DNA of 64,000 nucleotides, taken from NCBI GenBank assembly GCA_037447655.1, contig JBBHKE010003324.1, forward strand, positions 186,001 through 250,000. The letters run 5' to 3'. Under the pieces are notes generated by a model. That model worked only from the letters and a program-made list of their open reading frames with translations. It was not told the origin of the DNA and did not search any database. This DNA is from Zygnema cylindricum. Its lineage: Eukaryota; Streptophyta; Zygnematophyceae; Zygnematales; Zygnemataceae. Below, in pieces: positions 27,500 through 57,518 of the stretch (positions are counted from its first letter, which is position 1; every line of letters starts with the position of its first letter). The translations under genes and the position numbers were made by a program.

Positions 27500-27504
27500 C
27501 ATCA

Positions 27505-27889: not shown

Positions 27890-27902
27890 ACAAAAGAAGG
27901 AG
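27890..27902 (+). other. Polypurine tract of gypsy copy 1
   Basis: ACAAAAGAAGGAG directly before the proposed LTR start TGTACCCAG. The same context (GAGAAAGGAG) precedes the LTR at 38889. Confidence 0.6.
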
Positions 27903-29055: not shown

Positions 29056-29335
29056 CTTGAGAGGAGGGCCCACTGCCCGGAGTAATCGGCATTGGAGTCC
29101 TGCAAACAACCACGCAGAATGCGAATGCTTCCCATGATAATGCCAATGCCCACGGCTGCCCGCCTTTCTCCCATTAACATGCATGCAAAAATAGGGATGA
29201 GTGCATGGGGGAGCAAAAAGATCTCTCTTCCCCCTTCTTTCCCCACCTCGCCGGGGAAAGGTATGGGATTCTTGGTAATGGAGCAGGGTTCTTGATCCCC
29301 CCCCCTCTAAGTCAACCGTGACTAAAACATAAGAA

Positions 29336-30780
29336 TAATTACCCGCCCAATTCGCAGTTCCCCCAAAATCAGAGTGCATATGGCTTAGGATGAGGGTGCC
29401 AAGAGGAGGGGAGGTAAGACTGATGCCAACACTGGTCACATTGGTCATAGACAAGGACACGATTCTGAGAGGAGGACGAGAGGTAGCCAGAGGAACATGA
29501 TGGGTGATCGGCAAAATAGGTGAGGTGGAAAGTAGGCTCGTCTTCTAATCCCCGGATGTTACAGGGATTTACATTTATCTGATTTTCCTTAATTTTCCGA
29601 CCGTCTTTTCCTTCCAGTGTCAAGACACACTTATTGGAAATCTCCACCACTTTCAAGTTCACCCTTCCCGCCAAAATGTCAAGAGTGTCCTTTTTCTGTT
29701 GCATCAGATACACGAAATCCCCGGGTAGAAATTGCCATTACCGCAGGAAAAAATTCCCGCTCCGGCGTTGCAAATACTAGAGTTGATCTCAGAGCTAAGC
29801 TGCTTGTACATTCCCCATGGCCAGAGGCATTTTTCGGTGAAATACCTTGGCCCTGTCGGCAATCAGTTTCTCAGCTGTTCCCTTGCTATCAACTCCAGAA
29901 GGACCACCGCTTGGGCGGAGGCAGCGCCGGGTAGGATTCGATGTCGTCCGAACAAAATGAAATAAGGACTGTAGAACTGGAGGGAGGCTTGCTGGCTAAA
30001 CCTGTACCCCATGGCAATCCAAGGCACCCTTCTATCCCATTCTCCAAAATCTTGTTCCACAACATATTTGCGTAGTGACCGCTTCACTATTTGTACGCAC
30101 CTCTTGGCCAAACCATCGGCTTGTGGGTGGTCTCACCTAGGCACCTGGTGGTCGATGAGGCATAATTCTTACAAGTTGGAGAATTCTCCCGCAAATTCTG
30201 AGCCCTGGTCGTTCAGATCTTCGGCTGGGGCCCCAAATTGGGACAACACTCTCTGCAAGAATGCGTCCGCATCACCTTGGACTCCTTCCGGGGTAAGACC
30301 ACCAATTCGATCCACTTGGAAAAAAACTCTATCATTACCAATACAAAGTGGTTTCCCTCGACTGCTAGTGGGGAGAGGACCCAACAGATCCACAGACCAC
30401 CGATAAAACATTCCCCGGATTGGAAGGGAATGAAGCTGGGCGCCTCCATTTTTGTCGAAAGCTGCTTTGATGCGGTCACAGAAAGAACACGTCTGCACAA
30501 TCCAGTTGACTTGGGTCTGCAACCCGTGCCACCAGTACGATCATGTGACCAGGGAGGTGGTCCGTATCTGCCCAAAATGGCCACACTGTTGGTGAAGGGA
30601 AAATAAGAGTTTCCCTATTGGCCGGGGGAGAAACCACTTTCTCTATCCCGTCTGCCCATTTTCGGATTAAAATGCCACTCTCCCATTCGTACGCCTCCAT
30701 TCGAGCTTGAACCCGGGATAACTCCACTCTAGACAAATGGGGAAGAGGAGAACCTTGTTGGATAGATTGAAGTGCATTGG
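29336..30780 (-). pseudogene. gypsy copy 4: integrase with decayed PHD finger
   Basis: Leftward: the H2C2 zinc region (QTCSFCDRIKAAF), the core with SVDLLGPLPTS, NDQGSEFAGEF and, in another frame, the ADGLAKRCVQ block, then WDRRVPWIAMGY. The C-terminal part GDFVYLMQQKKDTLDILAGRV runs in one frame into a PHD-like segment (about 29370-29480). There CDQCWHQSY and CSSGY keep some zinc ligands, but three Cys are Tyr (TGY to TAY) and the last block reads FWGNC after a TGA. This copy shows that the finger is fused in frame to the integrase. About 24 residues before the finger that copy 3 lacks are present here. Confidence 0.85.
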
Positions 30781-31460
30781 TGTCATTCCAAATATCTTTC
30801 CGCCCGGCTCATATCGGTGCCTGCCCCTCCACGTCTGCGAAGAAAGTTTACAATTCCCCCCCACATTGAGGAAGCCAAATAAAGGCACAGGAAGCTCGAA
30901 TGAGTCCCAAACTGATTTTGGGATCTTTATCGTGACGCGCCCCGATCGAATCCCTAGTGGAATGATCAAGATTTCTCCTAAGTCCGTCGGCATTCCCATG
31001 GATTTCCCCGGCGTGGTGGATTATGTGAAAATCATATTTTTGCAGTGTTAACACCCATCTGGCGAACTTGGCAGTAAGCTTGCTGTTCTCCATAATCCAC
31101 TTGAAAGGTTGGTGATCCGAAATTAGAGTAAAATGGACTCCGTACAGATATGGTCTGAAATGTTGGATCGCCCTAACTGCCGCCAGTAATTCCCTGTGGT
31201 AGCTACTGTAATTCGCGTCCGCTCGGTTGTTACTTCTACTGGCGTAAGCTACCACATATTCAGCCCGTGCATCATCTAGTTGAGCTAAAACACCTCCCAA
31301 TCCAAACTGGCTCCAATCCGTGTAAAGGAAGAATGGCCTCTGATGATCGCGCATCCAGAGCATTGGGTGTTGCTTAAGGGAATCCTTCACAAACTAGAAG
31401 GAAATCTGTTGCTCCTCCGTCCTCTGCCACTCCTGGTCCTTTTGCAACAACTGGTTTAAC
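30781..31460 (-). pseudogene. gypsy copy 4: RNase H
   Basis: The 180-codon run 30848-31390 contains FFLYTDWSQFGLGGVLAQ, YVVAYASRSNNRADANYSS, YHRELLAAVRAIQHFRPYLYG and LISDHQPFKWIMENSKLTAKFARWVLTLQ, the standard gypsy RNase H blocks. IHNADGL-type blocks (GEIHGNADGL) follow. A stop separates it from the RT. It removed element RNA after copying. Confidence 0.88.
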
Positions 31461-32083
31461 CGAACCACTGCTCAGCGTGACTGCTAAATTCAGGGATGAA
31501 TCTCTGATAATAGTTAGCCTGGCCTAAAAATGTGCGGAGTGCAGAGACGTCTTCAGGAGGGGGGATGGCATCAAAGGCTACCACCTTGACCATATGGTGA
31601 CCCATTGTCCCGGGTGTAATTTCATGTCCCAGGTAAATAATTTTTATGCACCCCAAAAATTCCCTTACCCGAGTGACATTTCAAGCCCGCTGCTTGGAGA
31701 GCTCGGAGTACAATCTGTATGTGCTCCAAATGTTCCACGAAGGTCTTCGAGAAGATAATATTATCGTCGATGTAGCACCATGCACAGTCAATTCCCCGAA
31801 GCGCCTTGTCCATTGCATGTTGGAATTTGGTGGTGCATACTTTAGCCCGAATGGCATGTAGAGCCATTTATACAACCTGGAGCTTGCCCAAAAAGCTGTA
31901 CTTTCCCGGTGCTTTGGCTCCATGGCGATCTAGTGGAACCCATTCTTCATGTCTAAGGTGGAAAAAATGGTGGCTCCAGCCAGCGAGTCAAAAATCTTTT
32001 CTGGGGTAGGCATTGGGTATCGGTCAGAAACGGTTGCCCTGTTCAGCATCCGGTAGTCTCCACACATCCGAAAGTCTACCATT
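31461..32083 (-). pseudogene. gypsy copy 4: reverse transcriptase (truncated)
   Basis: It starts at FRMCGDYRMLN (32080) and runs through YPMPTPEKIFDSLAGATIF, LYKWLYMPFGLK and the catalytic CYIDD (about 31765) to IYLGHEITPG and FLGQANYYQRFIPEF. Two or three frame changes occur. The N-terminal RT and all upstream domains are missing because of LTR L. Confidence 0.88.
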
Positions 32084-32544
32084 TGTAATTATGTGTCCTC
32101 CATTAGACCACAGAATAAAGGAAGCCTCTACGTAGTATTTAACTAACCCACTTCAAGCCACAACCACTGCTGCCCAGGAAGGCAAAATGATAGTTTAACT
32201 GCACCCATATGCAGCTTAGACTCCTGCGAGTCCGTAGCAAAAAGAATCACAGAAAACTGCCAACCAGCCGATAAGTTATGAGGCATTAAAAATGCCAATT
32301 TGTACAAACTCTCAAAAGAAGAGGTGACTACCTACCAAAATTTTCTAAGTCCCGATACCCTCTAATAACCTCTATCTACTGAAGTACGGACCAATCAGAT
32401 TACTGTACCGTACTAAAACTAGCTCCCTATCCAGCCTTCAGTGACTACAACAAGTGTGGGGGCTTGGATAGGGGAGTTAGAGGCAGACCGCCTCAACTCT
32501 TTTTCTATCCTAATACAGACCTAGAAAATACTCAAATATCAACA
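32084..32544 (-). repeat. Chimeric copia LTR L with internal deletion
   Basis: Its left part (TGTAATTATGTGTCC, 32084-32410) matches the C/K type of LTR end. Its right part (32411-32544, ending ATATCAACA) matches the I/M type start. The middle is missing and the flanks (CCATT, GGTTT) do not form a TSD. A recombination between two different LTRs fits. Confidence 0.75.
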
Positions 32545-33021: not shown

Positions 33022-34825
33022 TGAAATTCTATGGGCTCCATTGCCACACAGAATTCGCAGGTCTTAAGGAAGCTAATCTAGATAGTGCCGACTCCAAGTT
33101 TATATAAACCCAAATGATTGACCCCTTGACAATCAAAACCCCATTACAGCTTCTCCCCTGTGAAGTTAGACTTTCAGTGTGCTCAGTTCACCACAGAATG
33201 CAAAGTTAGAATATGAGATTTGGACACATTCACCCACTTTGACTTTCCCTTAGAAATGCAGCCACCCAGGCAAGCAAATACTCTGACCGACTACACTCAT
33301 GTGTAGCGTGGGTTCACGTGATTCCGCAGCAAAAAGAATCACTGAAATTGGTCAACTGAATTGATAGTTATGGCTGCTCAAAGTGATCCTTTTTATACAA
33401 GATGCTCTCAAGGAGATGCGACTACCTACCAAAAATATTCTAAGTCCTAAAACCCACTCACAACCCCACTAGACCAATAAAATTGTAGCACACTACATAA
33501 TGTACATTAAAAGTACGATAGCCGCCGTACTTTATGCACGTAAATATTCGGCACCACTCTAGGTATGCCGCGTGGCGAAAAAGTCGTCGTCATTCTATCC
33601 TTTTCTTTTTCGGTATCCAATAGGATGATGCCACATGTCATTTTGACTTGCCGAATGGATCTTTGTTGACCGTTAAATTTCATCGGTCGTCATTCCGTGT
33701 TGACTGTTGAAATTCTCGTCAACATGGAACCAGTTGTGGTACGGACCAATCACATGACTGTACCGTACTGAAAGTACAGGTGCCGGAGTACCTTCTGTAC
33801 GGTCCATGTACGACATCGTCATAATGTGACATTTGTCACACCTTGACTTGTCATCTCGCGTTCCGGATTTCTCGCAACCCACCAAGATATTGCCACGTGT
33901 CATCCGGAGTGGCTGTGCCCAAAAACCTCAAGGCGCCCAATCCGGAATCTCGGCTCGCACCACGTCCGTAGATTCAAAATATCCTTTTTGTCTGGACCGT
34001 CAAAACAAATGTCTGTAACATCTGTTTCGTGCGGCATATAAGGTACACTAGGTTCTATGCTCTAAGATTCCGTTTAATCTGTTAAATGGAATCTTTGACG
34101 TGTAATTGTTTAATTATATGACGTACCCCATACATGTTAGCACATGTCCTATACTTAACGGACAAAGCTACCGCTTGCATCGACGGATGACAGGTACTAG
34201 GTTCAAATCCTGGGTTCGTCATATATCTGTTTTTAGTTAACCTACCATTATCACTCATGTTTCTCTAGAGAGCTTAGGCAGCCATAGCTCTAGCTCCCTT
34301 TCTAGCCTTGAGTGACTACAGCAAGTGTGGGGGCTTGGAGAAGGAGTCAGAGGCATGTACCAGGACAGGTACCAAGTTCAAATCCTAGACTTAACGGACA
34401 AAGCTACCGCTTGCATCGACGGATGACAGGTACTAGGTTCAAATCCTCGGTCCGTCATATATCTGTTTTTAGTTAACCTACCATTATCACTCATGTTTCT
34501 CTAGAGAGCTTAGGCAGCCATAGCTCTAGCTCCCTTTCCAGTCTTGAGTGACTACAGCAAGTGTGGGGGCTTGGAGAAAGAGTCAGAGGCATGTACCAGG
34601 ACAAGTACCAAGTTCAAATCCTGGGTCCGTCATATATCTTTTTTTAGTTAACCTACCATTATCACTCATGTTTCTCTAGAGAGCTTAGGCAGCCATAACT
34701 CTAGCTCCTTTTCCAGCCTTCAGTGACTACAACAAGTGTGGGGGCTTGGAGAAGGAGTCAGAGGCAGACTGCCTATACTCTTTTTCTATACTAAAACAGA
34801 CCTAGAAAATACTCAAATATCAACA
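33022..34825 (-). repeat. Long copia LTR M (solo) with internal duplications
   Basis: 1804 bp, minus orientation (TGTTGATATTTG at 34825 down to 33022), about 560-800 bp longer than its relatives. The extra length comes from a tandem array at 34153-34790 and a repeated GTAC-rich region (about 33480-33570 and 33735-33815). The gypsy sequence reads across it, but no clean 5-bp TSD is left (CCCTA against ATTCA). Confidence 0.85.
34153..34790 (+). repeat. Tandem array, 236-bp unit with tRNA-like boxes, about 2.7 copies
   Basis: Units begin ACTTAACGGACAAAGC at 34153 and 34389; a third partial unit lacks that start. Each unit has a B-box-like GTTCAAATCC (near 34200, 34438 and 34613), and an extra AAGTTCAAATCC near 34371. 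The unit is the antisense tRNA-like module plus the U3 start of the LTR. Confidence 0.8.
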
Positions 34826-35450
34826 ATTCACTGGAGAAGGAGAAACTGCCGTTAACCCTCTCCCACTTCAACTCCTCCATTCTTGGGGACGCCGAGTTCG
34901 ACTTACCTAGGAAAAACCGGAGCGAACACCGGTGGCTACAAGAAGACTTACTCCGGAATTCATCATCCAGCAACAAAGTCTGCAACTTGCCGCAATGGGT
35001 GCCGAGTTGGCTGCCCTCCGCTTGGGATCTTCTTCCCGGCTTGCTCCGCTCACGGCCGCACAAAACCTCCAAAAACAAAAACAAGAGTTGTTACAAACGC
35101 TCGTGGAGCTTGAGTTTCAAAGCCATGGAAATCGAATTCTCAGATGAAGCAAGCCAGATGGTGAAAATTGAACTCTCATTTTCAGTGGTTGAAGGGACTC
35201 AATTTGAAATTATGTTGGGGATGGCAACTTGCACCTGGCTAAATATGAGTTTAAGTGTGTGGAAAGAACAATGTACCGTTCGAGACCCCAGAAATCCCGA
35301 AGGAACCAAAGTGGTTGTTCCTTTGGATTTATGGAACCGGGGGAAGACAAATGTCCCGATGTCTGGATGTTACCCGGTGTATACTACACCATCTCCGACA
35401 GCACTGTTTGGCAGCTCCACAGATATAGCGGAAGAAATCTAGTAATTCCC
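34826..35450 (+). pseudogene. gypsy copy 2: Gag end joined to protease C-part
   Basis: 34826-35130 aligns to copy 3 Gag (TPEFIIQQQSLQLAAMGAELAALRLGS and a coiled-coil QKQKQELLQTLVELEFQ). It then jumps by deletion to the protease C-terminal half (MEIEFSDEASQMVKIEL, EGTQFEIMLGMATC, LWNRGKTNVPMSGCYPVY). The active site of the protease is lost in the deletion. The run ends EEI followed by TAG, at the same codon as in copy 3. Confidence 0.85.
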
Positions 35451-35792
35451 CATTTCCAAGCGGTGGGAAGAGGAATACAATAATAGATTATTATAAGTGG
35501 CGAAACTCCGGCGGGGAATGGATCAGAATTTCTCGGCTTTATCATTGAACCAAGCCGTTTCTACAACCCTGTCTAATGCTTCCAAAACCACGTCTGATAA
35601 CGTGGGGTTGGATCAACAAGTGGTGTGAATGGCAGTCCCCAATTCCAGAATCTTTATTTTATCTCTCTTTTTGAAGATTAGTTCCGATTTGGAAGCGGTT
35701 TTTAAGACAAGATATCTGGTGGAGTCCTACGCAGGCGTGGAGATATCCCTTGACGCACACGCTGACAGCGAACACCGCCTCCACCAACTTCA
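35451..35792 (+). pseudogene. gypsy copy 2: DNA methyltransferase motif I part
   Basis: It begins FPISKRWEEEY, then motif I decayed to LSLFLKISSDLEAVF (about 35655-35700). SYAGVEISLDAHADSEHRLHQLH follows (motif II region). Copy 3 has LSLFSGIS at this point. The fragment breaks at 35792 at the insertion of solo LTR K and resumes at 36831. Confidence 0.83.
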
Positions 35793-36825
35793 TGTTGAAA
35801 TCTATAGATTTCTATAGTATTTTCTAGGTTTAAATATGTTTTAATAAAAGGAAAAAGGACGGACAGCCTGCCTCCACCTCGCTCTCTAGCTCCCATACTT
35901 GTTGTAGTCACTGAAGGTAAGAGAGAGAGGTTGATCCATGGCTGCCTTTAGTTCAACAGACAGCTATTTTTAGTAGGTTACTAAAAATATACTTGACGGA
36001 CCAGAGATTTGATCCCGGTACCTACGGTTCGTCAAGTTGACCGGTAGCGGTCAGCTTTATCCTAATAGACTAGGACCAATGCTAAGTGCTATGGTATGTG
36101 ATAGATATATATTTAGTTAGGGAGAATTAAATCCATTTAACTGGAACTGTGTACGACGCACATAGATTCAGTTTTATATAGTACGTCGTACGACGCTAAT
36201 TCAAAACGGATACCGCGCATTTTATTTCGACATCGGAACAAATATCGCACAAGTATTTATTACGGCTAAGATTGCGTTTCGCATAAAATCCAACGGCGCA
36301 CATCATCGCCGAAATCCCGGAGTGGTCACTTTGGCGTTTTGTGACGTGGCATGACCTGGAGCCACGTGGAGAGATGACATTCGGTCATAGGAATTCCGAG
36401 GAACGTACGGACGAGTGAAAAGCGGACACGCGTCCACTTAATAGCCTTGTCGTACATAGGCCGTACAAAAGGTACATCGGCAGTAGTACTTTTGTGTACG
36501 ATACAGTAATCTGATTGGTCCGTACTTCAGTAGATAGGAGTTATTAGAGAGAATCAGGACTTAGAAAATTTTGGTAGGTGGTCACCTCTCCCTTTGAGAG
36601 TTTGTACAAATTGGCATTTTTACTGCCTCATAACTTATCGCCTGGTTGGCCTTTTTCAGTGATTCTTTTTTCTACGGACTCAGGGGAGTCCAGGCTACAC
36701 AGGGGTGCAGTCAAATTGTCAGTTTGCCTTCTTGGGCAGCAGTGGTTGTGGCTTGAAGTGGGTTAGTTAAATACTATCTAGAGGCTTCCTGTATTCTGTA
36801 GTCCAATGGAGGACACAGAATTGCA
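35793..36825 (+). repeat. Solo copia LTR K, TSD CTTCA
   Basis: 1033 bp, TGTTGAAA to GAATTGCA. CTTCA is at 35788-35792 and 36826-36830. It is C-type at its end and has the antisense tRNA-like segment (about 35990-36070), GTAC cluster (about 36450-36525) and gag ATG. It is a solo LTR left by LTR-LTR recombination inside gypsy copy 2. Confidence 0.94.
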
Positions 36826-36830
36826 CTTCA

Positions 36831-37690
36831 CCACTTATATCCTCAACAACTTCCAGTGTTTGTCTTCTCCAAAGCTCACCAAAGTCTTTCCCAAAATGTA
36901 GAAAACATCATGGTGACAAATCTGGCCAGTTTGGGAAGAGTGGATTTTGTGTTGGTAGTTGGCCTTCTCAGGGATACTCCCTAGTAGGACAAGGAAAAGG
37001 GCATCCAGACCGCAGAAGTGGAACATTTTACCGATTGATAGAATTGATCTCGTGGCTTTAATAGCTCCAAGACACACCGGTGGGGTACGTACTGGAAAAT
37101 GTCCTCCTGAGAGATGATAAACGGAAACAGGTTGCAAACAGCTAGAATAACGTTACCCGGATTTTATGACCTCCCTTGGTTTTTGACACCGCCAGATGGG
37201 ATCTCGGGCACAAAGAGTCAAGGCATATTCGACCAATATGGTCCCGCTTCTAGTCCTTCGGCAACTGTTGGAGAAGCAAATCCCCGACCCGTAAAATTAT
37301 GTGTAGCAAACCCTTAGGGAAGGAAGAATAGCCACCCTTGTGACTCGACCCAATCGCTCCCCTTTCTTTTAGTGCAACAAACCGGGATTCCCACGGAAAG
37401 CACTCCGACATTGGTATTTTTTCCTCACAGTCACACTTATCGCAAAAGAGGAGCAGGAATGATTTTTGACATTAAGGAAGGAATCTGGACAACACCGACA
37501 ATTACAAAACAGGAAGAAGCAATGGGAATTCATAAAGGCACCACGGTACCACCAGGTATTTGAGAACTTTAAAGGTGCAGCCTAATTGGGCAAAGTATGG
37601 ATTTGAATTCGATCACATGGGTGCTCAAGCATGCACTCGCCTTTTCCACTCTCAAGTCCGCGGAATCAAGATTATTTACCTTCAAGCTCT
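36831..37690 (+). pseudogene. gypsy copy 2: DNA methyltransferase, remainder (Cys to Ser)
   Basis: It continues the domain after K. The catalytic loop reads WPSQGYS: the catalytic cysteine codon (36966-36968) is TCT, serine. LENV (motif VI) is at about 37093-37110. HSHTYRKRGAGMIFD and EEAMGIH (motif IX) and GQSMDLNSITWVLKHALAF (motif X, about 37595-37655) are readable with frame changes. The region between motifs VIII and IX is shortened. A methyltransferase without the cysteine nucleophile could not methylate. Confidence 0.85.
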
Positions 37691-38868
37691 TTAGTTGTCA
37701 GCGATGCAAACAACTTTGAAGCTTGACACGGGGAGAGAAAAGAGAAGAAAAATACACATTTCACCATCACCTGTTTTCCCAGTGGGGGGGGGCAGCGGCT
37801 TAGTTGGCGACAGCTTAGTGGAAGTTGACAGCAGTAGCGTCTTAGTCAGAAGGGTAGAGGGAGATCCACCGGTAGGATTGGAATTCGACATTAACCTCTG
37901 GGTAGACCACTTGAGGCTTGGGCTGTTGTTGAGCCTAGGAAAATGGATTAGACCCTAGGGGAGCAGTTGGATCCTCAACAGAAGGCGGGGCTCTCAGAAC
38001 TATTGGCCAAAAACAAGCAGGTGTTCTCCTCGTCAAAAATATATATCGATTCTACAAAGGAACCCCCTTTTGGATTGACTTGATTGACGAAACAACAACG
38101 GTTTGGCAGAAACAGTATCCTCTCAGCTTGAAGGAGAAAGAGTTCATTACAACTAAGGTCCAAACCTTGGTTGATGCTGGATTGGTTCAGGAAAGTATCG
38201 AACTCCATGGGTTTACTTCTCCCACAGTTCTCCCTCCTAAAAAGGACTCGTCCGGTAAAACTGTAGATTTTTGAAATGTGTGGGGATTACCGCATACTGA
38301 ACACGGCCACCATTTCTGACCAGTATCCAATGCCTACCCCGGAAGAGATATTTGACTCTCTTGCTGGAGCCACCATCTTCTCCACATAGGACATGAAAAA
38401 CGGATTTCACCAGATTGCCATGGAACTGAAACACTGAGAGAGAACGACATTTTGGGCAGGATCTAGACTTTACGAGTGGATTTACATGCCTTTTGGGCTG
38501 AAGAATGCACCAGCCAAATTCCAACGGGCCATGGACAAAGCGCTCCGAAGAATTGTGCTCGGTGTTATATTGATGATGTGATCATTTTCTCAAACACCTT
38601 TGAAGAACACCTGGAGCATATCCAGATCGTCCTCCGGGCCCTCCAAGCTGCGGGCTTGAAATGTCACCCACGCAAAGGTATTTTTGGGGTACAGAAAATC
38701 ATTTACCTCGGACATGAGATGACTCCCGCGATTATGAGTCCCCCCATGGTCAAGGTGGCAGCCCTTGACGCCCTTCCCCCTCCGCAGGACATTGTTAAGC
38801 TCGGGTGCTTCACAAGCACCACTTTTATCAACCCAAGGATTTCCGAGCCTTTTCCCTTGGTACGGTAA
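37691..38868 (+). pseudogene. gypsy copy 2: linker and reverse transcriptase (truncated)
   Basis: The linker (VEVDSSSVLVRRVEGD, LEFDINLW) is followed by RT blocks: LKEKEFITTKVQTLV, SPTVLPPKKDSSGKTVDF, and after frameshifts RCYIDDVIIFSNTFEEHLEH (catalytic YIDD near 38565) and KIIYLGHEMTP. It ends at 38868 near the start of RNase H. Then comes a purine tract and an LTR, so the rest of pol has been deleted. There are stops near 38273 and 38390. Confidence 0.87.
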
Positions 38869-38888
38869 TAAAAGCACCGAGAAAGGAG

Positions 38889-40050
38889 CGCACTCAGAAA
38901 AACCAGATTCTTCTATTTTCTCAACTGAGCCGAACGCACTTTGTTTCGCGTCTAACGGAGGCCAAACGACAAAGTTATTCAGTTATAAAGTTTGTCCCCC
39001 TGTTACTTCTTACCAACTGCCACCTGTCGCTTTGAGGGCTACATTGTGTAGTGTCACGTAATTTTTGGGATAGTCTTGTAGATTTTGCTGTTGGCTATCC
39101 GTAGGACGTTAGTTCAGGTCCATTAGCCGGGTAAAGCATTTATTTAGGAGAGTCAAAGTTAGGCGTTTCACGTCAATTTAGAACTTTGTTGCTCAAGATT
39201 GTATCATAGAAAAACACGTGGCTTCTAATCTAGCCAAAGATAGTCGCCTAACTTTTTGCCCTGTGTGTAGTACAACCTGTTTTGTCTCATGTCCGTACGA
39301 TAAAAATTCCTGGCCGGTGATTGGCTCCTGGTATTGCTTTGACTTTGGTACTATCGGTAGGATAAAATTTGCTTCTATAAGGCACTTGGGGTCGACGGAG
39401 ATAGGTTGCTGTTTCATTACTGTCTCCTGAGAAAAACCCTAGAAATTCCAGCAAACTTTCTTGTGGAGAACTTTTGTTTTGTGTGTGATTGTGACCCTAT
39501 TGCCATCTTGATTTTCATCCGTCCTTTGTGGAAATCGTAGTCTGGTTTGGTGGTTGGCACTGTCTTTCCTGTTTGGGTGATTTGGGGACTGGTGTTTGTT
39601 GGAAATCAAAAAGGGTCTTTCCGGTTCCGGGTCGCGGAAACAGAGGAGTTAAGGAGGCCTTACCTGTTCCGGGGTTTTCGGGGGGAGATTTCGTCTCCTT
39701 TTGTTGTCCGCGTTACGTTTTGGGGGTAGGTTCAGCTTGCTTGTTATTTTTCATATTCTATCTTAATTCTCCATTTTTCTTAGTGCAAGGTGATATTGTT
39801 AATTTTGAGACAGCATTCTTTATATTTCTATCCTTTCATTTTTCTGAGTGGAAGTATCTTTGTTCTCTCTTTGGTTGTTATTTTTGCGGCTTCGGTTGGG
39901 TTTCCTCCGAGGGTGATTATCATAATCTTTCGTACCACGATAGTGAATTCTGAGAGAACTTTTGTTAGACTTTCGACAAACCATCATTGTACTAAAACAG
40001 CCGCCTATCTCTTTAGGTTAAAGAGGATAAGTGCTCACGCCGAAGTACTT
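38889..40050 (+). repeat. gypsy LTR between copies 2 and 3
   Basis: It aligns with 27903-29055 on the same strand. A purine tract (GAGAAAGGAG) precedes it, so it can be the 3' LTR of copy 2. It also directly precedes the Gag of copy 3, so it can be the 5' LTR of that copy. A shared LTR from recombination is likely. The start is CG rather than TG, the end is approximate, and no clear primer site is recognised. Confidence 0.72.
39376..39382 (+). promoter_or_regulatory. TATA box in gypsy LTR (copy 3)
   Basis: TATAAGG in the same TATAAGGCACTT context as 28379-28385. It is about 490 bp into the LTR. Confidence 0.5.
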
Positions 40051-40086
40051 TTATAAGGGGATTTAGATCTTCTTCTCCAATCAGCT

Positions 40087-42900
40087 ATGGGAGGAGGAGA
40101 AGTTCAGGATAAGGATCTTGAGCAAGAGAGGCAGGAAGCGGTGGCTCAAGAGGAAGAGTCTCAGATGCCCGAGGAAGCACCCCCTTTTGGCTCCCCTTTA
40201 CACATAGAGCGGCTTCTTAAGGGAGAGATGCCTCCGGAGGTTGCAGTCGAAACTCCTCCAACGCAGCCAGAGAGGCGACCCTCTCCTCCACCTCCACGTG
40301 TCTTTTCCCCCGAGAACTTTCCAACTTTGTCCGAGTCAACTCTAGCTTGGGCAATGGAGAGGGCGGAGAGGCCGCCCCTTTCCCCTAAAAGTCGGAGAAA
40401 GGGGTTGGCACACAAGGAAGCAGTCCCTGGTCACCTTCCCGAGACTAGTCGCTATACCAAGTCTAAGGCACCGATAGTAGGGATATAAATAGATCCAGAG
40501 ATTCTGTCTGATCTTAACCGTCCTGGTCGCAAGGAAATATTAGCCCTTCATAATCTCCATGAATTGAAGGTTAAGAAGGAGTTGGTGCAGCGGGTGGCCA
40601 GGTCAGACCAAGCCAAGGTGGTACGCCCAGTGGGAGGTGTAGTAGAGATACTGAGTAGTTCGTCGAAGAGCGGCTCCCCAACCTAAGTACAAGAGCAACC
40701 GGGGGGACCATCAACTTACTACCCGCAGCCCACTCCATCTCAGGACATTGCTACCAGCAGGCCGTCTCTGGACGGGGCGATCCCTCGGACACGGGCCAGG
40801 GAAGGGACCAGCAAGCGAGGGTTACCGGAGCCTAAGAAGGGGTATCGGTTCGATCATCAAGACCGCAAGGGCAGGTTCCCTCACCGACCTTAAGCGGAGC
40901 CGTTTTTCCCTTCTGACTCCTGTTCTGCGAGCTCAAAGGCTCCATATGCCTCGGCAGTTTGACCATCTGAGGGGTTGTGGCGTTATACACCCACCGACCC
41001 TGAGGTACTCGGGTTGGGGATTGCGGATCTCTCGGGGGTGGTAAGCAACACGCAAAAACTGGTGGATATCCTCCGATCCCAGAGTCAGGCTATGGCCGGG
41101 GCTAGACCTGTCACCATAGATTGGGAGGCCCTAGAAGAAGAACAGAAGAGGGCCCTAGAACAGGAATTGTTCCTAATTAGGGAGGCAAGACGGAAATCAG
41201 GGGGGATCCTTAGTGGAGAGGTATCTCTTCCTAGAGAGACAGGCCCCTCTGTTGAGAGACAACCTACAAGGCAAACTGCCCCCACTAAGACTCCAGCTCC
41301 CAAGACCTCTTCGGAACTTAGATCGGAGTCTCCTCTTCAGCGGGAACGGGGGGAAACAACTAGACCTAACAAGCAGGGAATGGGTGCAGATCTATCGGAT
41401 AACGTTGCAGCCTCCACCACTGAGCGTCCTACTTTTGTCTCAGTGACTGGGTCTTCAACTGCGGAGGCCGTGGTATAATTACAACCCGACCAGAGACAAC
41501 ACATCTCCCTTTGGCTTTTCACTTCTCCTCCCTGTCCACCTCAGGCATCCTCTCCTTCGCCTTCTGTTTCTCGGGCCGCTGCAGTCCGTGGGTCACCGGG
41601 ACCACCTGTCTTACCCTACAAGTACGACGTTCCTGCCTACTCTCGGCCTCACTGGCGTTCTCCCGCTTCCAGCGAAGGAACTCCTCCACCAGAAACCTCC
41701 AGAAGGCGTACACGGGGATAAACACCTTTCCCTCGTAGTCCTCAATCATCTTCATCCCCTTCTCCACCAATCGCTCAATGACCACCGGTGATTAAACCTA
41801 TTCTCCACATTCCCTCGGTGGGAACAGTTCTCCGGGAGGAACGGGCCTCTCCTAGGTTTAGAGGAGCAGGACTTCGGGCAGCTTTTCCCAAGCTGATAAG
41901 CTCCTTGTTACCCAAAGGCCAACTCAAGGGAGATACCGGTCCTCTCCCTATCCCACCAGTAACCGGAGAAGGAGGCAGCTCCGAGCCACCCCACGCGGAT
42001 CCACGGGTCATTTCACTGGTTCAGTTTGTTAGTCCCACCGGACAATCATCTCCCCGGTTCACCAATCTTGCAGAGGAAGAGAAAGAAATGGGGGACGCAA
42101 GGTTCTTTACAGGAGATAGCTCGGGAATCACTTTCTCTGATTTTGAATTGCTGTGGAAGTCGTTCACCCAATCTGAAATCAACAAATACAGGGGCGAAGC
42201 CATTCCGGATGACTTTGAGACCACGCTTTTTCCCATGATGGTTAACTATCTTGTTGGTGGAGCTTTGGTAGACTACAAGGAGCGACAACCTCTTCTGATG
42301 GCTCCCACCATCAAAATTTCAGACCCTACCCTTAATGAGGCGGTTTTGCAAGCGGAAGCAGACTTGGCTGCTGCCGCAGCCGCTCCTGTCACCGCAACCT
42401 TCTCAGAAGACATGAAACTACAGGCGCAAGGACGAGCTTATGTAGCTCAGCTTCAGGCCATCGAGGCTGCTAGAGCAGCCACTCGGATGGTTGCAGACCC
42501 AAACCCTTGTACAACACTTCTGAACGCCTGGAGACTTTTTTACAATGAAAGAAATGAATGTGCTATCAAGGAATTCACGGTATTCCGTTGTCAAAAGAGT
42601 GAAATTCCGAGACTCTTTTTAACAGATTGGCCAGCCTTTGTCAAAAGACCAAACTCTCCACCATTGATCTCCTGGCAATGGCAACAAAATACTTCATCGC
42701 CGTCTGAAACTCGTTCGGACCCACGGGACAGGCTGCCATCGATAATTGGATTGCGGGACAGGCCATTTAGGAGGTCAATCCCACTGCCAAAGAAACCTCT
42801 CTGGCCGCAATGAAGCTCTATGATCATTTCGTACATAGAGAGGCGAAAGAAAAGGCGGTAAATGGGAAAACCCGGGGAAACTTTGCAGGATTTGCCGGAG
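40087..42900 (+). pseudogene. gypsy copy 3: Gag N-terminal and capsid region
   Basis: From the ATG at 40087 to about 42640 a single frame continues through about seven stops. The N-terminal part is acidic, then proline-rich (QPERRPSPPPPR), then a helical part with DWEALEEEQKRALEQELFLI (near 41120). A capsid-like part begins near 42090 (SGITFSDFELLWKSFTQ, ADLAAAAAAP, AFNAWRLFYNERN-like). After a frameshift near 42640 the capsid goes on as TIDLLAMATKYFIAV and YDHFVHREAKEKAVNG. It would be an unusually long Gag, about 1000 residues or more with the following parts. No host gene matches to my knowledge. The start is the first ATG after the LTR. Confidence 0.75.
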
Positions 42901-44415
42901 AATGCCTCCTGAAAATGAGGAGTCAGCCGAACTCTTAGCTTTACGCAAGCTCAAGGGGAAACAGGTGGCGGATAGCGGATCCAAAAACGCCATGGGGGCC
43001 GATGATCGCGTCTTCCTCTATAACTGTCTAAACTGTCAACAAACAGGTCATGGATGGAAACGATGTCCGAAAGCTCAAACCGGAATTAGCTCTCAAGCAA
43101 AAGGAATGGGAGAAGGAGAGAGCGGAAAGGACAAAGAGGCGGCAAGAAAGGAAACAAGGAGGAGGGTCAGACGACAAAACTCCGGTTAACAAAGAAAATT
43201 ATCGGCCAACTCCACGATCTGAGATTGCAAGAATGTCGCAAGCCCAGTTGCGACAGATTAAACTTCCAAAATTCGATGACGCTCAAATATCCAATGAGCT
43301 GGGGGGCAAATATACTACTGAGGGCTCCAAGTGTGAGGCTTGCGGTTTCATGGGTCACAAGGAGGGGTAGTGCTTCCGAAAGAATGGAGTTCCAAAAGAA
43401 ATGATGCAATATGCACTGTTCATCGGGGAAGGCGAAACTGCCGTGAATCCTTTCCCTCTGCAGCTTCTTTACCCTTGGGGACGCCGCACCCCGGAGAACC
43501 CTGAACGACAAGAAACAGGTCAAGCTCGACTAACCCCGGAAGTAATCATTCAACATTAGAGCCAGCAGATGGCACCCATGGCTGCGAAATTGGCATCACT
43601 GCGATTAGGATCGCCCTCAAAGACCTTAGCTCTGACGGCCGCTCGGAAACTCAACCAAAGAAAACAGGAGTTGATACAGAAGCTAGCGGAGCTTGAACAA
43701 GAAACCGCGACGAGCGAAGACGATGACCAAGTGATGGGGTGAGACATGGAACCTTCTAAACCAGATCATACACAAACCTTTCTTTCTGGAGCCTGGAATG
43801 TCGGTGTGGGGGACAATTGCAGGCATCTCTGGAACTCAACTGTGGCGCAAAGAAGAGACAGGCAACAGCTAGCTCCAGGAGACCATAACAAAAACGCTAC
43901 TGGGCCTCTGTCCTTCACTCCCAGGGCCGTTATTCTGAACGACAAAATAGGTCTCGAGATAAAACCCACATATCCACCTCCACCATCCGCGAAGAAATTT
44001 CCTCCCGGTTTTGAAAATTTCCAGAACGACAAACAGCAGTGAGAAAAGGAGTCACTGGAAAAAGAGAAAATGGACAATCAGGACTGGTTCGAAAAATATA
44101 TGGCCGAACACCCTGAGAATGAAGATCCCCAGACACCTCCTATTCCCAATTCTGGCTCAGAAAGCGAGCACGAAGAACAAGATCAGGACTAGCAAGAACA
44201 GAAATCATCTCCCTCTTCACCAAAAGTGACACTTCCCTCCTCCAAACTGGTTGTCATGCTAGTCCAACACCTCATGCCCTATGCTCTCACCCACGTGAAG
44301 ACCCTCGCATCGTCCCACAACTTTCCCGAAGAAATCCTCATTCAGGCATTGGGAGAGGAAATCCACTCTGGAAAGGGGGGGGGTAGACAGGACCACGCCG
44401 TCAACCGCCTCATTT
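42901..44415 (+). pseudogene. gypsy copy 3: Gag zinc knuckles and C-terminal region
   Basis: The first knuckle is CLNCQQTGHGWKRC (about 43027-43068, C-x2-C-x4-H-x4-C). A charged helix follows (EKERAERTKRRQER). The second knuckle is CEACGFMGHKEG with TAG just before its last Cys (43368-43370). TPEVIIQH, a coiled-coil KLNQRKQELIQKLAELEQE, FTPRAVILNDKIG and an acidic tail follow, then SSKLVVMLVQHLMPYALTH leading to the protease. Several stops and at least two frameshifts occur. Fragments of this part recur at 5943-6371, 12724-13190, 32768-33021 and 34826-35130, which ties the copies together. Confidence 0.82.
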
Positions 44416-45003
44416 TTGTCCACCGATCGTAAAACCCCTATAGTGGATAGGGACTACAAAGCCTTATCATTGGCTCTCATATTGAACAGAACCAGGAACT
44501 TTCGGCTCAACGGATACGGGGGATACCAGGACGCTGTGGTCCACACCGGAGCTCTCCCTAACCTCATTACCACCTCCGCCTTGCAGAGAATGCCCGAGGA
44601 ACTCCGGCCCGAAATCTGCCCAAGCAACATATGCTTAAGCACCGTAAGCAGCGGCAGTCAACCAGTACATGGAATAATCAAGGCCATAGACATCGAGTTT
44701 TCTCATGACGGAGGCCAACAGGTGAAAATTGAGCTTCCCTTCTTAGTGGTGGAAGGGACTCAATTCGAAATCTTGTGGGGAATCGCCACCTGGACCCGAC
44801 TCAATATGAGTTTAAGCGTGTGGAAAGAACAATGTACCGTGCGGGACCCCAAAAATCCAGAAGGAACCAAAGAAGTGGTTCCTCTGGATTTATGGAACGG
44901 GAGGAAGACCAATGTCCCAGTGGCTGGTTGCTACCTGGTGTACACTACTTCCGTTCTGACGGAACTGATTGGCAGTTCCACAGATATCGCCAAAGAAATT
45001 TAG
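44416..45003 (+). pseudogene. gypsy copy 3: aspartic protease
   Basis: A retropepsin-like domain in a 195-codon run. The active site reads VVHTGALPNLI: the catalytic aspartate has become histidine (copy 1 keeps D). Downstream blocks are FLVVEGTQFEILWGIATW and LDLWNGRKTNVPVAGCYLVY. The run stops at TAG 45001-45003 and continues in the same frame into the methyltransferase. So protease and methyltransferase form one reading frame with a single stop between them. Confidence 0.87.
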
Positions 45004-46200
45004 CAATTCCCTATTTCTAAGCGGTGGGAAGAGGAATATCAGAACCGATTAACGCAGACAACAAAACTTGGGCGGGAAGTGGATAAGGCTTTTACTGCTG
45101 TTTTTGTCAAAGGAAAAGAACCTCCAGCGAAATCTTCGAAAGTTCCTCCGGACTATCAGAATTTCAATCGACAAGTGGTGTCATTATCAATCCCAAGTTC
45201 TGGACTCCGGATATTATCCCTATTTTCTGGAATTAGCTCAAACCTCGAGGCTGTCTTGAAAGCTGGATTTAAAGTGGAGTCATACGTTGCCGTGGAAATC
45301 TCACCAAATGCTCGAGCCGTCAGTGAACACCGACTACAACAACTCCACCAATTGTATCCCCAGCAACTCCTAGTATCCGCCATCTGCAGATCACACCGAA
45401 GTGTTCCGCAAAATATCGAAAATATCCTGAAACCTCATCTCGTTATTCTAGGTCGAATAGATTTGGTGATTGCACGATGGCCATGTCAAGGATACTCAAT
45501 AGCAGGGAAAGGCGAGGGACATCAAGACAGCAAAAGTCGAACTTTCTTCCAAATGATAAAATTAATTTCCTGGCTGCAGCAGTCCTAAGACACACCAGTG
45601 GGGTACGTTTTGGAGAATGTCAACCCGGAAGATGATCAAAGAAAACAAGTCGCCAATAGCTGGAATAAAGTCAAAAAGATTATACGAGCTCCACTTGTTT
45701 TCGATGCAGCACAACTGGGATCCCGGGCACACAAAGTCAGGGCATACTGGACCAACTTGATACCTTTGTCAATCCTAACCAAGCTCTTATTGAACAATAA
45801 CCCAGATCCCCATATTACCCTGCAACAAATTTTAGGGCTAAGGCGAATGGCCACACCAGTAACAAAAGCTTATCATCCTCCGTTCTTCCGGTGCAACCAA
45901 CCAGGACAACCAAGGCGAGCACTGTCAACCTTGGTTTCCTTCCCCAACAGCCATGCGTATCGAAAGGGAGCAGCCGGAATGATATTTGACAACGCACGTG
46001 AAGAATGGACAACACCAACGGTGGAAGAACGAGAATTAGCCATGGGATTCCAACCTGCCAGCATGGCGGCACCGGGTATTTCAGACCTCCAGAGGTGCAG
46101 CCTACTCGGACAGAGCATGGATCTAAATGCAATAACATGGGTGATAAAACATTCTCTAGCCTTCCCCAGCATACAGTCTCCAACATCAAGGGCTAGCTAC
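45004..46200 (+). pseudogene. gypsy copy 3: C5 DNA methyltransferase domain
   Basis: Motifs occur in the canonical order of bacterial-type and DNMT1/DNMT3-type enzymes, not the rearranged DRM order. Motif I is LSLFSGIS (45214-45237), where S-adenosylmethionine binds. AVEISPNARAVSEHR is motif II. The catalytic loop is WPCQGYS with Cys codon 45484-45486. Motif VI is LENV (about 45610-45621). RAHKVRAYW (about 45730) is the motif VIII-like arginine block, ELAMGFQP (about 46035) is motif IX, and LLGQSMDLNAITWVIKHSLAF (here named by positions about 46100-46160) is motif X. One TAA (45586-45588) is the only break. The region between VIII and IX is short, so the target-recognition domain is small. 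The wording around motifs VI-X resembles DNMT3-like enzymes. Its role would be to methylate cytosines, possibly in the element's own DNA copy. Function is inference. Confidence 0.9.
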
Positions 46201-47380
46201 CTTCAAGCTCCAAAGTTGTTAGCGGTGCAGGCTCACTTGCAGCTTGAGGGGGGGAGGAAGGAAAGAAAACAATTTTTATCATCAAAATTTTCCATTCCCA
46301 GCATTTTACCGAAATTAAGAGATTCCTCAGTGCGGGGGGGCGGAGGCTCGGAAGGGGACAGCTTAGCGGAAGTTGTTAGTAGCAGCATTCTGACGGGAGG
46401 AGAAGAGGTAGACCCACATGTAGGGTTGGAATTCGATATCTCCCGCTGGGGTAGACCCCCGAAGGCTTGGGTAGTGATTGAACCCGGAAAGATGAATTGG
46501 ACTCTAAGGGAGCAGTTGGACGCGCAGCAAAGGTCCCGGCTATCTGGCCTGTTTGAGAAGAACAAACAGGTATTCTCCTGGTCAGATACCGATGTAGGCA
46601 TCTACAAAGGAACCCCTTTTCGAATTGATTTAATTGACGAGACGACGAATGTTTGGCAGAATGCAATACCTTCTCAGTTTCAAGGAAAAGGAGTTCATCA
46701 CGGCAAAGGTACAAACTCTAGTGGAAACCGGATTGGTGCAGGAAAGTCTTGGACTCAATGGATTTGCATCCCCAACTGTTCTCCCACCCAAGAAGGACTC
46801 TTTTGGGAAAACGGTAGACTTTCGGATGTGTGGAGACTACCGGATGCTGAACACGGCCACTGTACCTGACCGATACCCAATGCCTACCCCGAAAGAGATT
46901 TTTGACTCGCTGGCCGGGGCCACAATTTACTCCACCGTAGACATGAAAAATGGTTTCCACCAGATCGCTATGGAGCCAAAACACCGGGAAAGAACAACTT
47001 TTTGGGCAGGATCCCGGTTGTACGAATGGCTCTACATGCCATTCGGGTTGAAGAATGCTACAGCCAATTTCCAACGTGCCATGGACGAGGCGCTCCGGGG
47101 GATTAACTATGCACGGTGCTACATCGATGATGTAATTATTTTCTCAAAGACCTTTAAAGAACACCCGGAGCACATACAGATTTTACTCGAGGCTCTCCAA
47201 GCAGCGGGCTTGAAATGTCACTCGGGTAAGGGAATTTTTGGGGTACAGAAAATAATTTACCTCGGACACAAAGTTACCCCGGGACCGTGGGTCCCCATAT
47301 GGTCAAGGTTGCAGCACTTGATGCCCTTCCCCCTCCTCAAGACGTCTCTGCACTCCACACCTTTTTAGGCCTCGCTAACT
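46201..47380 (+). pseudogene. gypsy copy 3: linker and reverse transcriptase
   Basis: A linker with a Gly-rich part and VGLEFDISRWGRPPKAW follows the methyltransferase in the same frame. The GTPFRIDLIDET block starts the RT. The frame shifts near 46640. The run 46634-47368 then has PTVLPPKKDSFGKTVDF, MCGDYRMLNTATVPDRYPMP, LYMPFGLKNATANFQRAM and the catalytic YIDD (47120-47131). Another shift follows near 47280. It is the polymerase of a Ty3/gypsy element. Confidence 0.9.
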
Positions 47381-48036
47381 ATTACCGGAGATTCATCCTT
47401 GAATTTAGGAGCCACGCTCAGCCTCTGAACCAGTTGCTGCGGAAGGACTAAGAGTGGCACTGGACGGAGGAGCAACAGATTGCCTTCCAATTCCTCAAGG
47501 ATTCCCTGAAGCAACACCCCGTGCTCCGAATGCCTGATCACCAAATACCCTTCCTCCTTTACCCAGATTGGAGCCGGTTTGGATTGGGAGATGTTTTAGC
47601 CCAACTGGATGATGCTTGGGCCGAATATGTTGTAGCTTACGCCAGTAGAAGTAACAACCGAGCCGAGGGAAATTACAGCAGCTATCACGAGGAATTACTG
47701 GCGGGGGTCTGGGCCATCTAACACTTCAAACCATACCTATACTGAGTCCATTTCACGATGATTACGGATCACCAACCTCTCAAGTGGATTATGGAGAACA
47801 ATAAGCTAATTGGCAAGCTCGCCAGGTGGGTGTTGATACTACAAGAATATGACTTCGACATAATCCACCGGGCCGGAGAGATTCATGGAAATGCCGACGG
47901 ACTTAGCAGAAATCCCGACCCTTCCACCCGAGATTCCTCAGGGGCCCGCCATGATGAGGATCCAGAAATCAGTTTGGAACTAATCCGAGCTTTTATGCCT
48001 TTATTTGGCTTCCTCAATTTGGGGGGGAAAGAGTAG
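47335..48036 (+). pseudogene. gypsy copy 3: RNase H
   Basis: FLGLANYYRRFI, a stop, then PDWSRFGLGDVLAQL, YVVAYASRSNNRAEGNYSSY, two stops (in AI*HF and LY*VH), ITDHQPLKWIMENNKL and EYDFDIIHRAGEIHGNADGLSRNPD. Several nonsense codons are one step from CAG, TGG or TAT codons. It is homologous to 30781-31460 and 49798-50268. Confidence 0.9.
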
Positions 48037-48050
48037 CTTTCTCTGTAGAC

Positions 48051-49208
48051 GTGGAGGGGCAAGCGGGAATAGGGGTCAGGCGAAAAGACATATGGAATGA
48101 CCCTGATGCGCTTCAATCTATCCAGCAAGGTTCCCCTCTTCCCCATTTGTCTGGAGTGCGGCTATCGTGGGTTTTGACTCGAATGACCTCATATGAATGG
48201 GAAAGGGGTATTTTGATCCGCAAATTGGTTGACGGGACGAGGAAAGTGGTTCCTCCACCGGCTGACCGGGCGACTCTGATTTTTCGTCTTCACCAGCAAT
48301 GTGGCCATTTTGGGCAGAAACGGACTACCTCGCTGGTCACCGGATCTTATTGGTGGCACGGGTTGCAGACCCAAGTCAACCTGATTGTGCAGACGTGTTC
48401 CTCCTGTGACCGAGTTAAGCCAGCCTTCGACAAAAAGGGGGGTGCCCAACTTCACTCACTCCCCATCCAGGGAATGTTTTATCGGTGGTCTCTTGATCTG
48501 CTGAGCCCTCTCCCCACTAGCAGACGAGGAAACCGCTTCGTACTAGTAATGATAGAGCACTTTTCCAAGTGGATCGAATTGGTGGTCTTACCCCGGAAGG
48601 AGTCTAAGGCGATTGCAGACGCATTGTTGTAGAGAGTGCTGTCCCAATTCGGGGCCCCTGCTGAAGTTTTGACGGACCAAAGCTCCGAATTTGCAGGAGA
48701 ATTCTCCAACTTGTTGGAATTGTGTCTTATCGACCACAGGCTGACCAGCCGAGACCACTTGCAGGCCGACGGATTGGCCGAAAGGTGCGTACAGACAGTG
48801 AAGCGGTCACTGCGTAAATATGTTGTGGAAGAGGATTTGGGAGAATGGGATAGAAAGGTGCCTTGGATTGCCATGGGTTACACGTTCAGCCGGCAAGCAT
48901 CCCTCCACTCCTACAGTCCATATTTCATTTTGTTTGGACGACACCCAATCCTACCCGGAGCCGCCTCTGCCCAAGCGATGGTCCTTCCAGAGATGGACAA
49001 TAAGGGAACGGTCGAAAAACTGATTGCCGACAGGGCCAAGGTGTTTTACCGGGAAATGCCTCTAGCCATGGGAAATTTACAGCCGGCTCAGCACCGAGAT
49101 CAACTCTGGTATTCGCACCACAGAAGCGGAAATTTTGTCCCAAGGCAACGGCGATTTCTTCCCGGGGATTTCGTGTACCGGATGCAACAGAAAAATGGGA
49201 CACTCTAG
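48051..49208 (+). pseudogene. gypsy copy 3: integrase
   Basis: The N-terminal HH-CC zinc site (HQQCGH ... CSSCDRVKPAF) is followed by the core with SLDLLSPL, TDQSSEFAGEF and ADGLAERCVQTVKRSLRKYV, giving D, D and E. A TAG (48630) interrupts the core once. The C-terminal part has WDRKVPWIAMGY and the SH3-like GDFVYRMQQ. The run ends by a frameshift at about 49200, after which the PHD segment follows in another frame. Copy 4 shows the uninterrupted joint. There is no chromodomain. Confidence 0.9.
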
Positions 49209-49225
49209 ATATTTCCGCGGGGAGG

Positions 49226-49489
49226 GTGATCTTGAAAGTAGTGGAAGTCTCCAATAAGGGTGTCTTGACACTGGAAAGGAAGGATGGGCGGAGGATCAAG
49301 GAAAATCAGATCAATGTGGCTCCCCCTTTGTGTTCCTCAGACTGCCTCTCATCTTCCTCCCATAATTCTATACGGGTTTGTGATCGATGCGACCAGTGTT
49401 GGCATCAGTCTTGCCTCCCCTCCTTTAAGGACCCTCGTCCTAAACCCTCGGCACTCTGGTTCTGCGGGAACTGCGAATTGGGAGGGTAA
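49226..49489 (+). pseudogene. gypsy copy 3: PHD-type C4HC3 zinc finger
   Basis: In this 87-codon run the ligands are C36, C40, C52, C55, H60, C63, C80 and C83 (finger at 49331-49474). It has the PHD signature CDRCDQCWHQSCL and W-F-C-G-N-C. The spacing C-x3-C at the first pair is one longer than usual. PHD fingers typically bind histone H3 tails, unmodified or methylated at lysine 4. In an integrase tail it could choose chromatin targets, as chromodomains do in chromoviruses. That role is inference. The stop TAA follows NCELGG at once, so the finger ends the polyprotein. Confidence 0.82.
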
Positions 49490-49797
49490 ACATTTAAAAG
49501 TCTTAGTCACCACTGACTAAGAGGGGGGGAAATCAAGGAAACGGCTCCACCTGTAAGGATTCCATCTTTTCCCCCCCCCTTCCCCCCCCGGCCTTGGGGG
49601 GGAAGGAGAGGGGGGGAGGGGATATCTTTTCGTCCTTCCTTAACACTCATCCCCACCTTTGCATGCATGCTCATAGGGGCCCGAAGGGTAGCGGTGGGCA
49701 TAGGCATTGTGGTGGAAAGCATTCGCATTATGGTGGGGGTTGCTTGTAGGACTCCGATGCCAATCACCCGGGAAGTGGGCCCTCCTCTCATGTTTTC
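49490..49797 (+). other. gypsy 3' non-coding tract with C/G runs
   Basis: It lies between the PHD stop and the jump to copy 5. 49571-49621 has two runs of C followed by runs of G, able to fold back or form a quadruplex. The same region, opposite strand, is at 29056-29330. A purine tract AAGAGGGGGGGAAA near 49520 is another candidate polypurine tract. No LTR follows. Confidence 0.6.
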
Positions 49798-50268
49798 CAG
49801 CACACTCGACAACATCTCGGCCCTTCGCACCTTTCTTGGCCTGGCATGCTACTATCGGCGGTTTATCCCCGAGTTCAATAGTCACGCTCAGCCCCTCAAT
49901 CAGCTATTAGGGAAGGACCAAGAATGGCAGTGGGCCGAAGAGCAGCAGATCGCCTTCTAGTTCTTGAAGAATGCTCTGAAGCAGCACCCCATCCTGCGGA
50001 TGTCTGATCACAAGTGGCCTTTCCTCCTTTACACTAACTGGAGCAGATTTGGATTGGGAGCGGTTTTGGCTCAAGTCGATGATGCCCAAGCTAAATATGT
50101 GGTGGCTTACGCCAGCCGGAGCAATAACACAGCAGAGGGGAATTACAGCAGTTCCCACAGAGAGCTACTCGCAACGGTTTGGGCAGTCCAGCATTTTCAA
50201 CTTTATTTGTACGGGGTCTATTTCACCCTGATATCTGATCACCAGCCCCTAAAATAGATCATGGAGAA
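49798..50268 (+). pseudogene. gypsy copy 5: RNase H fragment
   Basis: It begins inside the RT/RNase H joint (DNISALRTFLGLACYYRRFIPEF) and ends DHQPLK, then TAG. It has LYTNWSRFGLGAVLAQ, ASRSNNTAEGNYSS and LATVWAVQHFQLYLYG. It is joined to copy 3 by a deletion at about 49797 and cut on the right by the LTR of copia F. There is one stop near 49960. Confidence 0.87.
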
Positions 50269-50273
50269 TAATA

Positions 50274-57425: not shown

Positions 57426-57518
57426 TACCGCGCATTTGTTTTGATAGCGAAACAAATACCGCGCATTTGTTTCGACAGCGAAACAAATACCGCGCATTTG
57501 TTTCGATAGCGAAACAAA
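57426..57518 (+). repeat. Tandem 31-bp hairpin units, three copies
   Basis: Units start TACCGCGCA at 57426, 57457 and 57488. Each holds TTTGTTT(C/T)G and CGAAACAAA as inverted arms around 4 bases. The H LTR has one such unit. The 3' LTR of I also has three (about 60553-60650), with the arm order of one unit partly inverted. Confidence 0.9.

Follow-up and report, generated by a model that had tools for sequence, protein, structure and literature searches.

We analysed a 64,000-nt stretch of Zygnema cylindricum DNA (the window) that contains four members, here termed copies 1, 2, 3 and B, of one Gypsy-type retrotransposon family with a DNA methyltransferase (DNMT) in its pol region. Copies 1-3 are very likely old, broken members of a Ty3/Gypsy-type lineage that encodes a gag-protease-DNMT-reverse transcriptase (RT)-RNase H-integrase-PHD polyprotein, in which a Dnmt3-type DNMT would methylate the element's own complementary DNA (cDNA) or insertion and the PHD finger would guide integration. 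Sequence comparison establishes the domains, their order and the conservation of the DNMT in relatives with long open frames.

An earlier, sequence-only reading of the window had recognized a C5 DNMT in copy 3, and a profile search bears this out, with nucleotides 45004-45585 matching Pfam PF00145 (DNA_methylase; E 2.9e-8, 33.9 bits, cut-off 22). The motifs on which it relied are present in canonical order, with LSLFSGIS (motif I) at 45214-45237, WPCQGYS at 45478-45498, LENV at 45610-45621 and AHKVRAYWTN at 45727-45756. Motifs I, IV, VI, VIII, IX and X run linearly and not in the rearranged order of DRM-like enzymes. The first PDB matches to the 45004-45588 part are DNMT3C, DNMT3A and DNMT3B, and the domain is closest to DNMT3 both by profile and by fold (the AlphaFold model spans 45124-46230). 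Fold and motif order are those of the animal DNMT3A/3B catalytic domain; in contrast, identity in the structural alignments to DNMT3A/3B is only 24-26%, the PHD finger of the element lies far downstream of the DNMT, and Pfam detected neither ADD nor PWWP in copy 3 or in the relatives scanned. These data support the reading of a predicted Dnmt3-type C5 DNMT that lies in the pol of a Gypsy-type element, with protease before it and RT after it. In a 40-row DNMT alignment, which like the outgroup tree leaves out copy 1, the motif VI Glu is invariant, while the catalytic Cys and the motif VIII Arg are each conserved in all rows but one (39/40). At the residue level the earlier reading held for the presence of the motifs but not throughout: the motif IV Gly (37/40 rows) is replaced by Arg in copy 3, and copy 2 has WPSQ in place of WPCQ.

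Copy 3 is collinear with the related protein P0001 (1494 aa, JGI source), with 41% identity over DNMT and linker, and shares 36% with P0003 over protease and DNMT. The Gypsy order of protease, RT, RNase H and integrase (RVT_1, RT_RNaseH, H2C2/rve) was recovered by Pfam in full in P0014 and in all but the protease in P0001. RVT_1 and H2C2 were detected by Pfam in copy 3, where alignment supplies the remaining Gypsy domains, and RT_RNaseH was detected by Pfam in copy B. The protease profile passes its cut-off in P0014 (PF13650, 26.3 bits vs 24.3) and falls below it in P0003 (PF13975, 22.4 bits vs 28.2). Four of the seven copy 3 pieces scanned had no Pfam match; the 48633-49205 part of the integrase gave none, and neither did the frame 45589-46866, which opens with the second DNMT half, yet the latter aligns collinearly with P0001-P0003. 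Downstream of the probable gag frame, 43260-43982 matches the gag side of P0003 at 24.6%. The PHD finger, which the sequence-only reading did not list, falls within the 96 residues that end copy 3; the equivalent stretch of P0001 reaches only 9.5 bits (PF00628 cut-off 24). Among the 17 proteins in which an integrase core was matched, phmmer found a PHD finger in 12.

Protease, DNMT and RT linker had been read as one frame. They do share a frame, but two stops interrupt it (TAG, 45001-45003; TAA, 45586-45588), and RT proper lies in another frame after a change near 46660. Furthermore, the copy 3 protease has HTG where P0003 has DTG. Copy 3 looks non-functional because of these stops, the frame change, the HTG and the motif IV Arg. 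None of the copies looks able to work, copy 2 having WPSQ and copy 1 its DNMT stops, and the copies in the window cannot now perform the functions proposed here.

That copies 1 and 2 hold the same domain was confirmed (copy 1, 13799-14550 and 27498-27888; copy 2, 35446-35793 and 36814-37752), and the view of the DNMT as a fixed part of the family is supported, since it occurs in all three window copies that cover the protease-DNMT interval as well as in the relatives with long open frames. The copy 1 DNMT is cut by nested copia-type sequence from 14578 to ~27498, which has ACATC on either side, and contains 9 stops in 375 aligned codons; the RT of this copy was not among the matches. Copy B begins within RT and thus carries no information on the DNMT. 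Copy 3 is inserted into copy 2 with precise boundaries: to the left of the insert, copy 2 can be matched to copy 3's own sequence as far as 47343 (at 38790), to the right the match resumes at 47342 (at 49812), and GACA is found on both flanks of copy 3 (38788-38791 and 49808-49811). The 5' region of copy 3 recurs (~80%) at 27897-29033, right after the copy 1 DNMT, and the minus-strand copy B has the same 3' end as copy 3 as far as 49790.

Table 1. Positions of the Gypsy-type family members and their domains in the window.
Feature	Position	Strand	Remarks
Copy 3, whole insertion	38792..49807	+	inside copy 2, at copy 2's RT/RNase H junction
Copy 3, gag region (probable)	41782..42813	+	open frame, no Pfam match
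Copy 3, protease-like region	44299..45003	+	aligns with P0003 from 44416; terminal TAG; no Pfam match itself
Copy 3, DNMT N-terminal part (motifs I, IV)	45004..45588	+	PF00145; terminal TAA
Copy 3, DNMT C-terminal part (motifs VI, VIII, IX, X)	45589..46230	+	collinear with P0001-P0003; inside AlphaFold model
Copy 3, RT	46664..47344	+	PF00078 E 1.1e-26 (frame 46634-47365); 67% to P0001
Copy 3, RNase H	47278..47967	+	70% to P0001 737-966 (P0001 RNase H = 798-938)
Copy 3, integrase	48048..49205	+	PF17921 H2C2 E 3.7e-14 (47958-48629); 64.5% to P0001 993-1378, P0001 has rve
Copy 3, PHD finger, integrase C-terminus	49343..49474	+	PF00628 E 1.6e-5, 25.3 bits, cut-off 24
Copy 2, protease and DNMT start	34816..35793	+	then ~1-kb interruption
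Copy 2, rest of DNMT (WPSQ) and RT	36814..38791	+	copy 3 follows as an insert
Copy 2, RNase H fragment beyond copy 3	49808..50272	+	P0001 740-911 at 62%
Copy 1, protease and first DNMT part	12998..14577	+	AGWPCQG kept; several stops
Copy 1, last DNMT part	27495..27890	+	beyond nested copia-type sequence
Copy B, RT, RNase H, integrase, 3' end	29058..32100	-	82.6% to 46809-49317

Protein searches returned 39 relatives, nine from Marchantia polymorpha and one from Closterium sp. NIES-54; the first search, with a 194-aa N-terminal piece, gave no match among 102 candidates, which were limited by length. DNMT and RT occur together in 19 proteins, with the DNMT before RT in 10 and after RNase H in 9. 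Integrase comes next in eight of the latter; the ninth, P0022, has nothing beyond the DNMT. In P0003, P0007 and P0014 a single open frame covers protease and DNMT. Four further proteins (P0009, P0010, P0012 and P0016) end ~80 to 120 residues past the DNMT match, an arrangement suggesting that the DNMT closes a gag-protease frame and that RT would be encoded in a second frame.

The after-RNase H order forms one side of a branch both in the DNMT tree (12 rows, support 100/100, three of them assigned to this group because the DNMT directly precedes integrase) and in that of RT (9 rows, 97/100). Distances in the two trees, compared across 18 proteins and copy 3 with P0020 left out for having only a short RT piece, correlate with an r of 0.875 that none of 999 permutations attained, establishing at the sequence level that the DNMT shares the history of RT. 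Copy 3 groups with P0001 and P0002 in the RT tree (98/99), the DNMT tree (90/84) and the outgroup tree (99/87). Five outgroup enzymes, the only DNMT references in the tree (DNMT3A, DNMT3C and three phage enzymes), are set apart from all 40 DNMT rows (100/99); the root and the direction of the DNMT move are uncertain because long branches meet at the outgroup. Copy 1 was tried in the tree and rejected, its end branch of 2.97 being put down to frameshifts. The three phage enzymes were drawn from 229 phage records that matched the DNMT, ten of which are listed at 26-31%. Against viral contigs, P0001 had no match and the DNMT alignment gave partial-length matches of 28-50% identity at 28 loci.

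Evolutionary rates were estimated as the ratio of nonsynonymous to synonymous divergence (dN/dS). For copy 3 against copy 2, dN/dS was 0.16 in the DNMT, where synonymous divergence (dS, 2.37) is close to saturation, and 0.15 in the protease; the integrase, compared between copies 3 and B, gave 0.19. Part of this divergence arose once the copies had decayed, so that earlier purifying selection was probably no weaker than these ratios show.

Elements of this kind are already known, and the precedent named in the sequence-only reading (de Mendoza et al. 2018) proved correct: KnitGypsy-Dnmt3 from Klebsormidium nitens, like copy 3, has a Dnmt3-type DNMT inside the Pol of a Gypsy element, with key residues kept and purifying selection reported (PMC5890265). 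The main text of that paper mentions no PHD finger, whereas copy 3 possesses one. No K. nitens sequence appeared by name among the 39 relatives, 29 of which lack an organism name. SymbioDIRS-Dnmt3 likewise carries a Dnmt3-type DNMT in a retrotransposon Pol but with a tyrosine recombinase (PMC5890265), in contrast to the H2C2 integrase finger of copy 3 and the rve core of P0001 and P0014; PF00589 (tyrosine recombinase) was not among the Pfam matches of copy 3, other window frames or the relatives scanned. SymbioLINE-Dnmt, also a retrotransposon-borne C5 DNMT, is a LINE with a Symbiodinium-specific orphan DNMT class (PMC5890265), unlike the Dnmt3-type enzyme in Gypsy order of the window family. 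A different kind of enzyme, an N4/N6-type methyltransferase, has been described in a brown-algal DNA transposon (PMC12477816), and the main text of PMC11105155 holds no matching passage.

A 2025 paper again cites such elements from streptophytes and dinoflagellates, which it calls Copia and DIRS (PMC12344493). In the Closterium sp. NIES-54 protein P0006, the DNMT is joined to copia SH3 and RVT_2 domains. We considered a copia-borne DNMT here and rejected it: the DNMT match stops early, within the region of motif VIII (residue 275-277 of a total of 1130), and P0006 is probably a copia element inserted in a Gypsy DNMT and fused to it by gene prediction, a reading we adopt because copia sequence physically cuts the copy 1 DNMT in the window. 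P0006 may bear on the report of a Copia-borne DNMT3 (PMC12344493). According to a 2019 opinion, land plants are without such elements (PMC6338049); the Marchantia proteins speak against that statement, and a limited, hence weak, literature search on Marchantia found no title or abstract on DNMT-bearing retrotransposons. As far as our limited literature search shows, which did not extend to PHD fingers of Gypsy integrases, what is added here is the PHD finger, the existence of two domain orders and the members from Marchantia.

In the mechanism that we propose, the DNMT would be made within the Gag-Pol precursor, packaged together with RT and deployed on double-stranded cDNA or the fresh insertion, which it would methylate de novo, the mode in which Dnmt3-type enzymes act. 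Chromodomain Gypsy elements are a precedent for chromatin-guided integration, and by analogy with them the PHD finger at the integrase end may guide integration to a chromatin state. Judging from the sequences, catalytic methylation is probably the function for which the DNMT was kept. That the main target is the element's own cDNA or insertion is possible, our confidence on this point falling a little short of even; the idea of self-methylation already appears in the abstract of PMC5890265.

Several observations weigh against this interpretation. The window contains no intact copy. RT has higher dN/dS values (0.42 and 0.53) than the other domains, probably raised in part by matches crossing frameshifts, and dS relative to copy 1 is saturated, with 108 of 500 DNMT bootstraps usable. 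All relatives were found by DNMT similarity, leaving sister elements without a DNMT unsampled. In a yeast assay, SymbioDIRS showed activity and the KnitGypsy DNMT produced no methylation, a result its authors call inconclusive (PMC5890265). CpG depletion, considered as a mark of self-methylation, was not seen: the observed/expected ratio is 0.67 in copy 3, the same as the mean of the window (0.66) and inside the range of the copia elements (0.49-0.81), so that CpG self-methylation finds no support in the window. Methylation may instead fall in another sequence context, by analogy with a moss DNMT3 that acts mainly on CHH sites (PMC6453930). Finally, no terminal repeats were found on copy 3, a single old copy, despite its precise boundaries, and no DIRS-like repeats were found on it either. 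Since KnitGypsy-Dnmt3 has DIRS-like repeats according to a figure legend (Fig. 4 of PMC5890265), unusual ends may be a trait of the lineage.

Other roles for the DNMT were weighed against self-methylation. A domain kept for a non-catalytic purpose, such as nucleic-acid binding, capsid assembly or processing, would fit the Arg at the motif IV Gly of copy 3, the Glu that replaces the motif IV Pro in 13/40 rows, the loss of the Gln in 6/40 and the missing CpG signal, but the nearly invariant catalytic Cys, motif VI Glu and motif VIII Arg make such a role quite unlikely. De novo activity would also suit an enzyme whose targets lie in trans, in the DNA of the host or of rivals, where it would silence competitors or limit host damage, and not in its own cDNA; we regard this as unlikely. 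Effects on the host methylome are discussed in PMC5890265.

The DNMT could in principle be a host retrogene that came to lie beside a Gypsy copy by chance. This is refuted by the data in hand, as the domain occupies the same place in three window copies, shares one frame with protease and linker, lies in single open frames in relatives and has a tree that agrees with that of RT. The TAG between protease and DNMT falls at the same codon in copies 2 (35440-35442) and 3, as expected if programmed readthrough set the amount of DNMT-Pol. However, the codon is TGG in copy 1, a second stop follows immediately in copy 2, and the three relatives named above carry protease and DNMT without interruption; readthrough is thus very unlikely, and on sequence grounds the common TAG is explained by shared ancestry of decayed copies.

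The window as a whole is a nest of retrotransposons in which the Gypsy-type copies are interspersed with copia-type frames, and Pfam detected copia-type domains in 7 of 10 open frames scanned outside copy 3. A repeat pair (6372-6960 and 11719-12308, 97% identical) flanks a copia-type element in the upstream part of copy 1, and this element is probably one of the nest's younger insertions. Tandem arrays of a 31-bp unit whose halves are inverted, GAAACAAATACCGCGCATTTGTTTC, lie near copia-type elements at 57420-57556 and 60549-60654, and similar sequence occurs at 17283 and 22717. A tRNA search of the window found none, and the plant-type copia primer site TGGTATCAGAGC was not found in it.

Animal DNMT3 enzymes combine an ADD finger with a methyltransferase, a reader-plus-writer layout. 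We tentatively suggest that the elements described here represent a mobile analogue of this arrangement: an old, widespread Gypsy lineage, extending from streptophyte algae to liverworts, that inherited a Dnmt3 writer and a PHD reader in one polyprotein and in which the DNMT moved once between the positions before RT and after RNase H. If this is true, reader and writer would be split between the integrase and a separate domain, unlike in animal DNMT3, and site choice would be coupled to methylation. Apart from this suggestion, the relatives found here indicate that retrotransposon-borne Dnmt3 is no curiosity of one charophyte alga and Symbiodinium, with the DNMT sitting in a branching Gypsy lineage, and the Marchantia polymorpha members make the effect of the DNMT on methylation and transposition testable in a laboratory plant.
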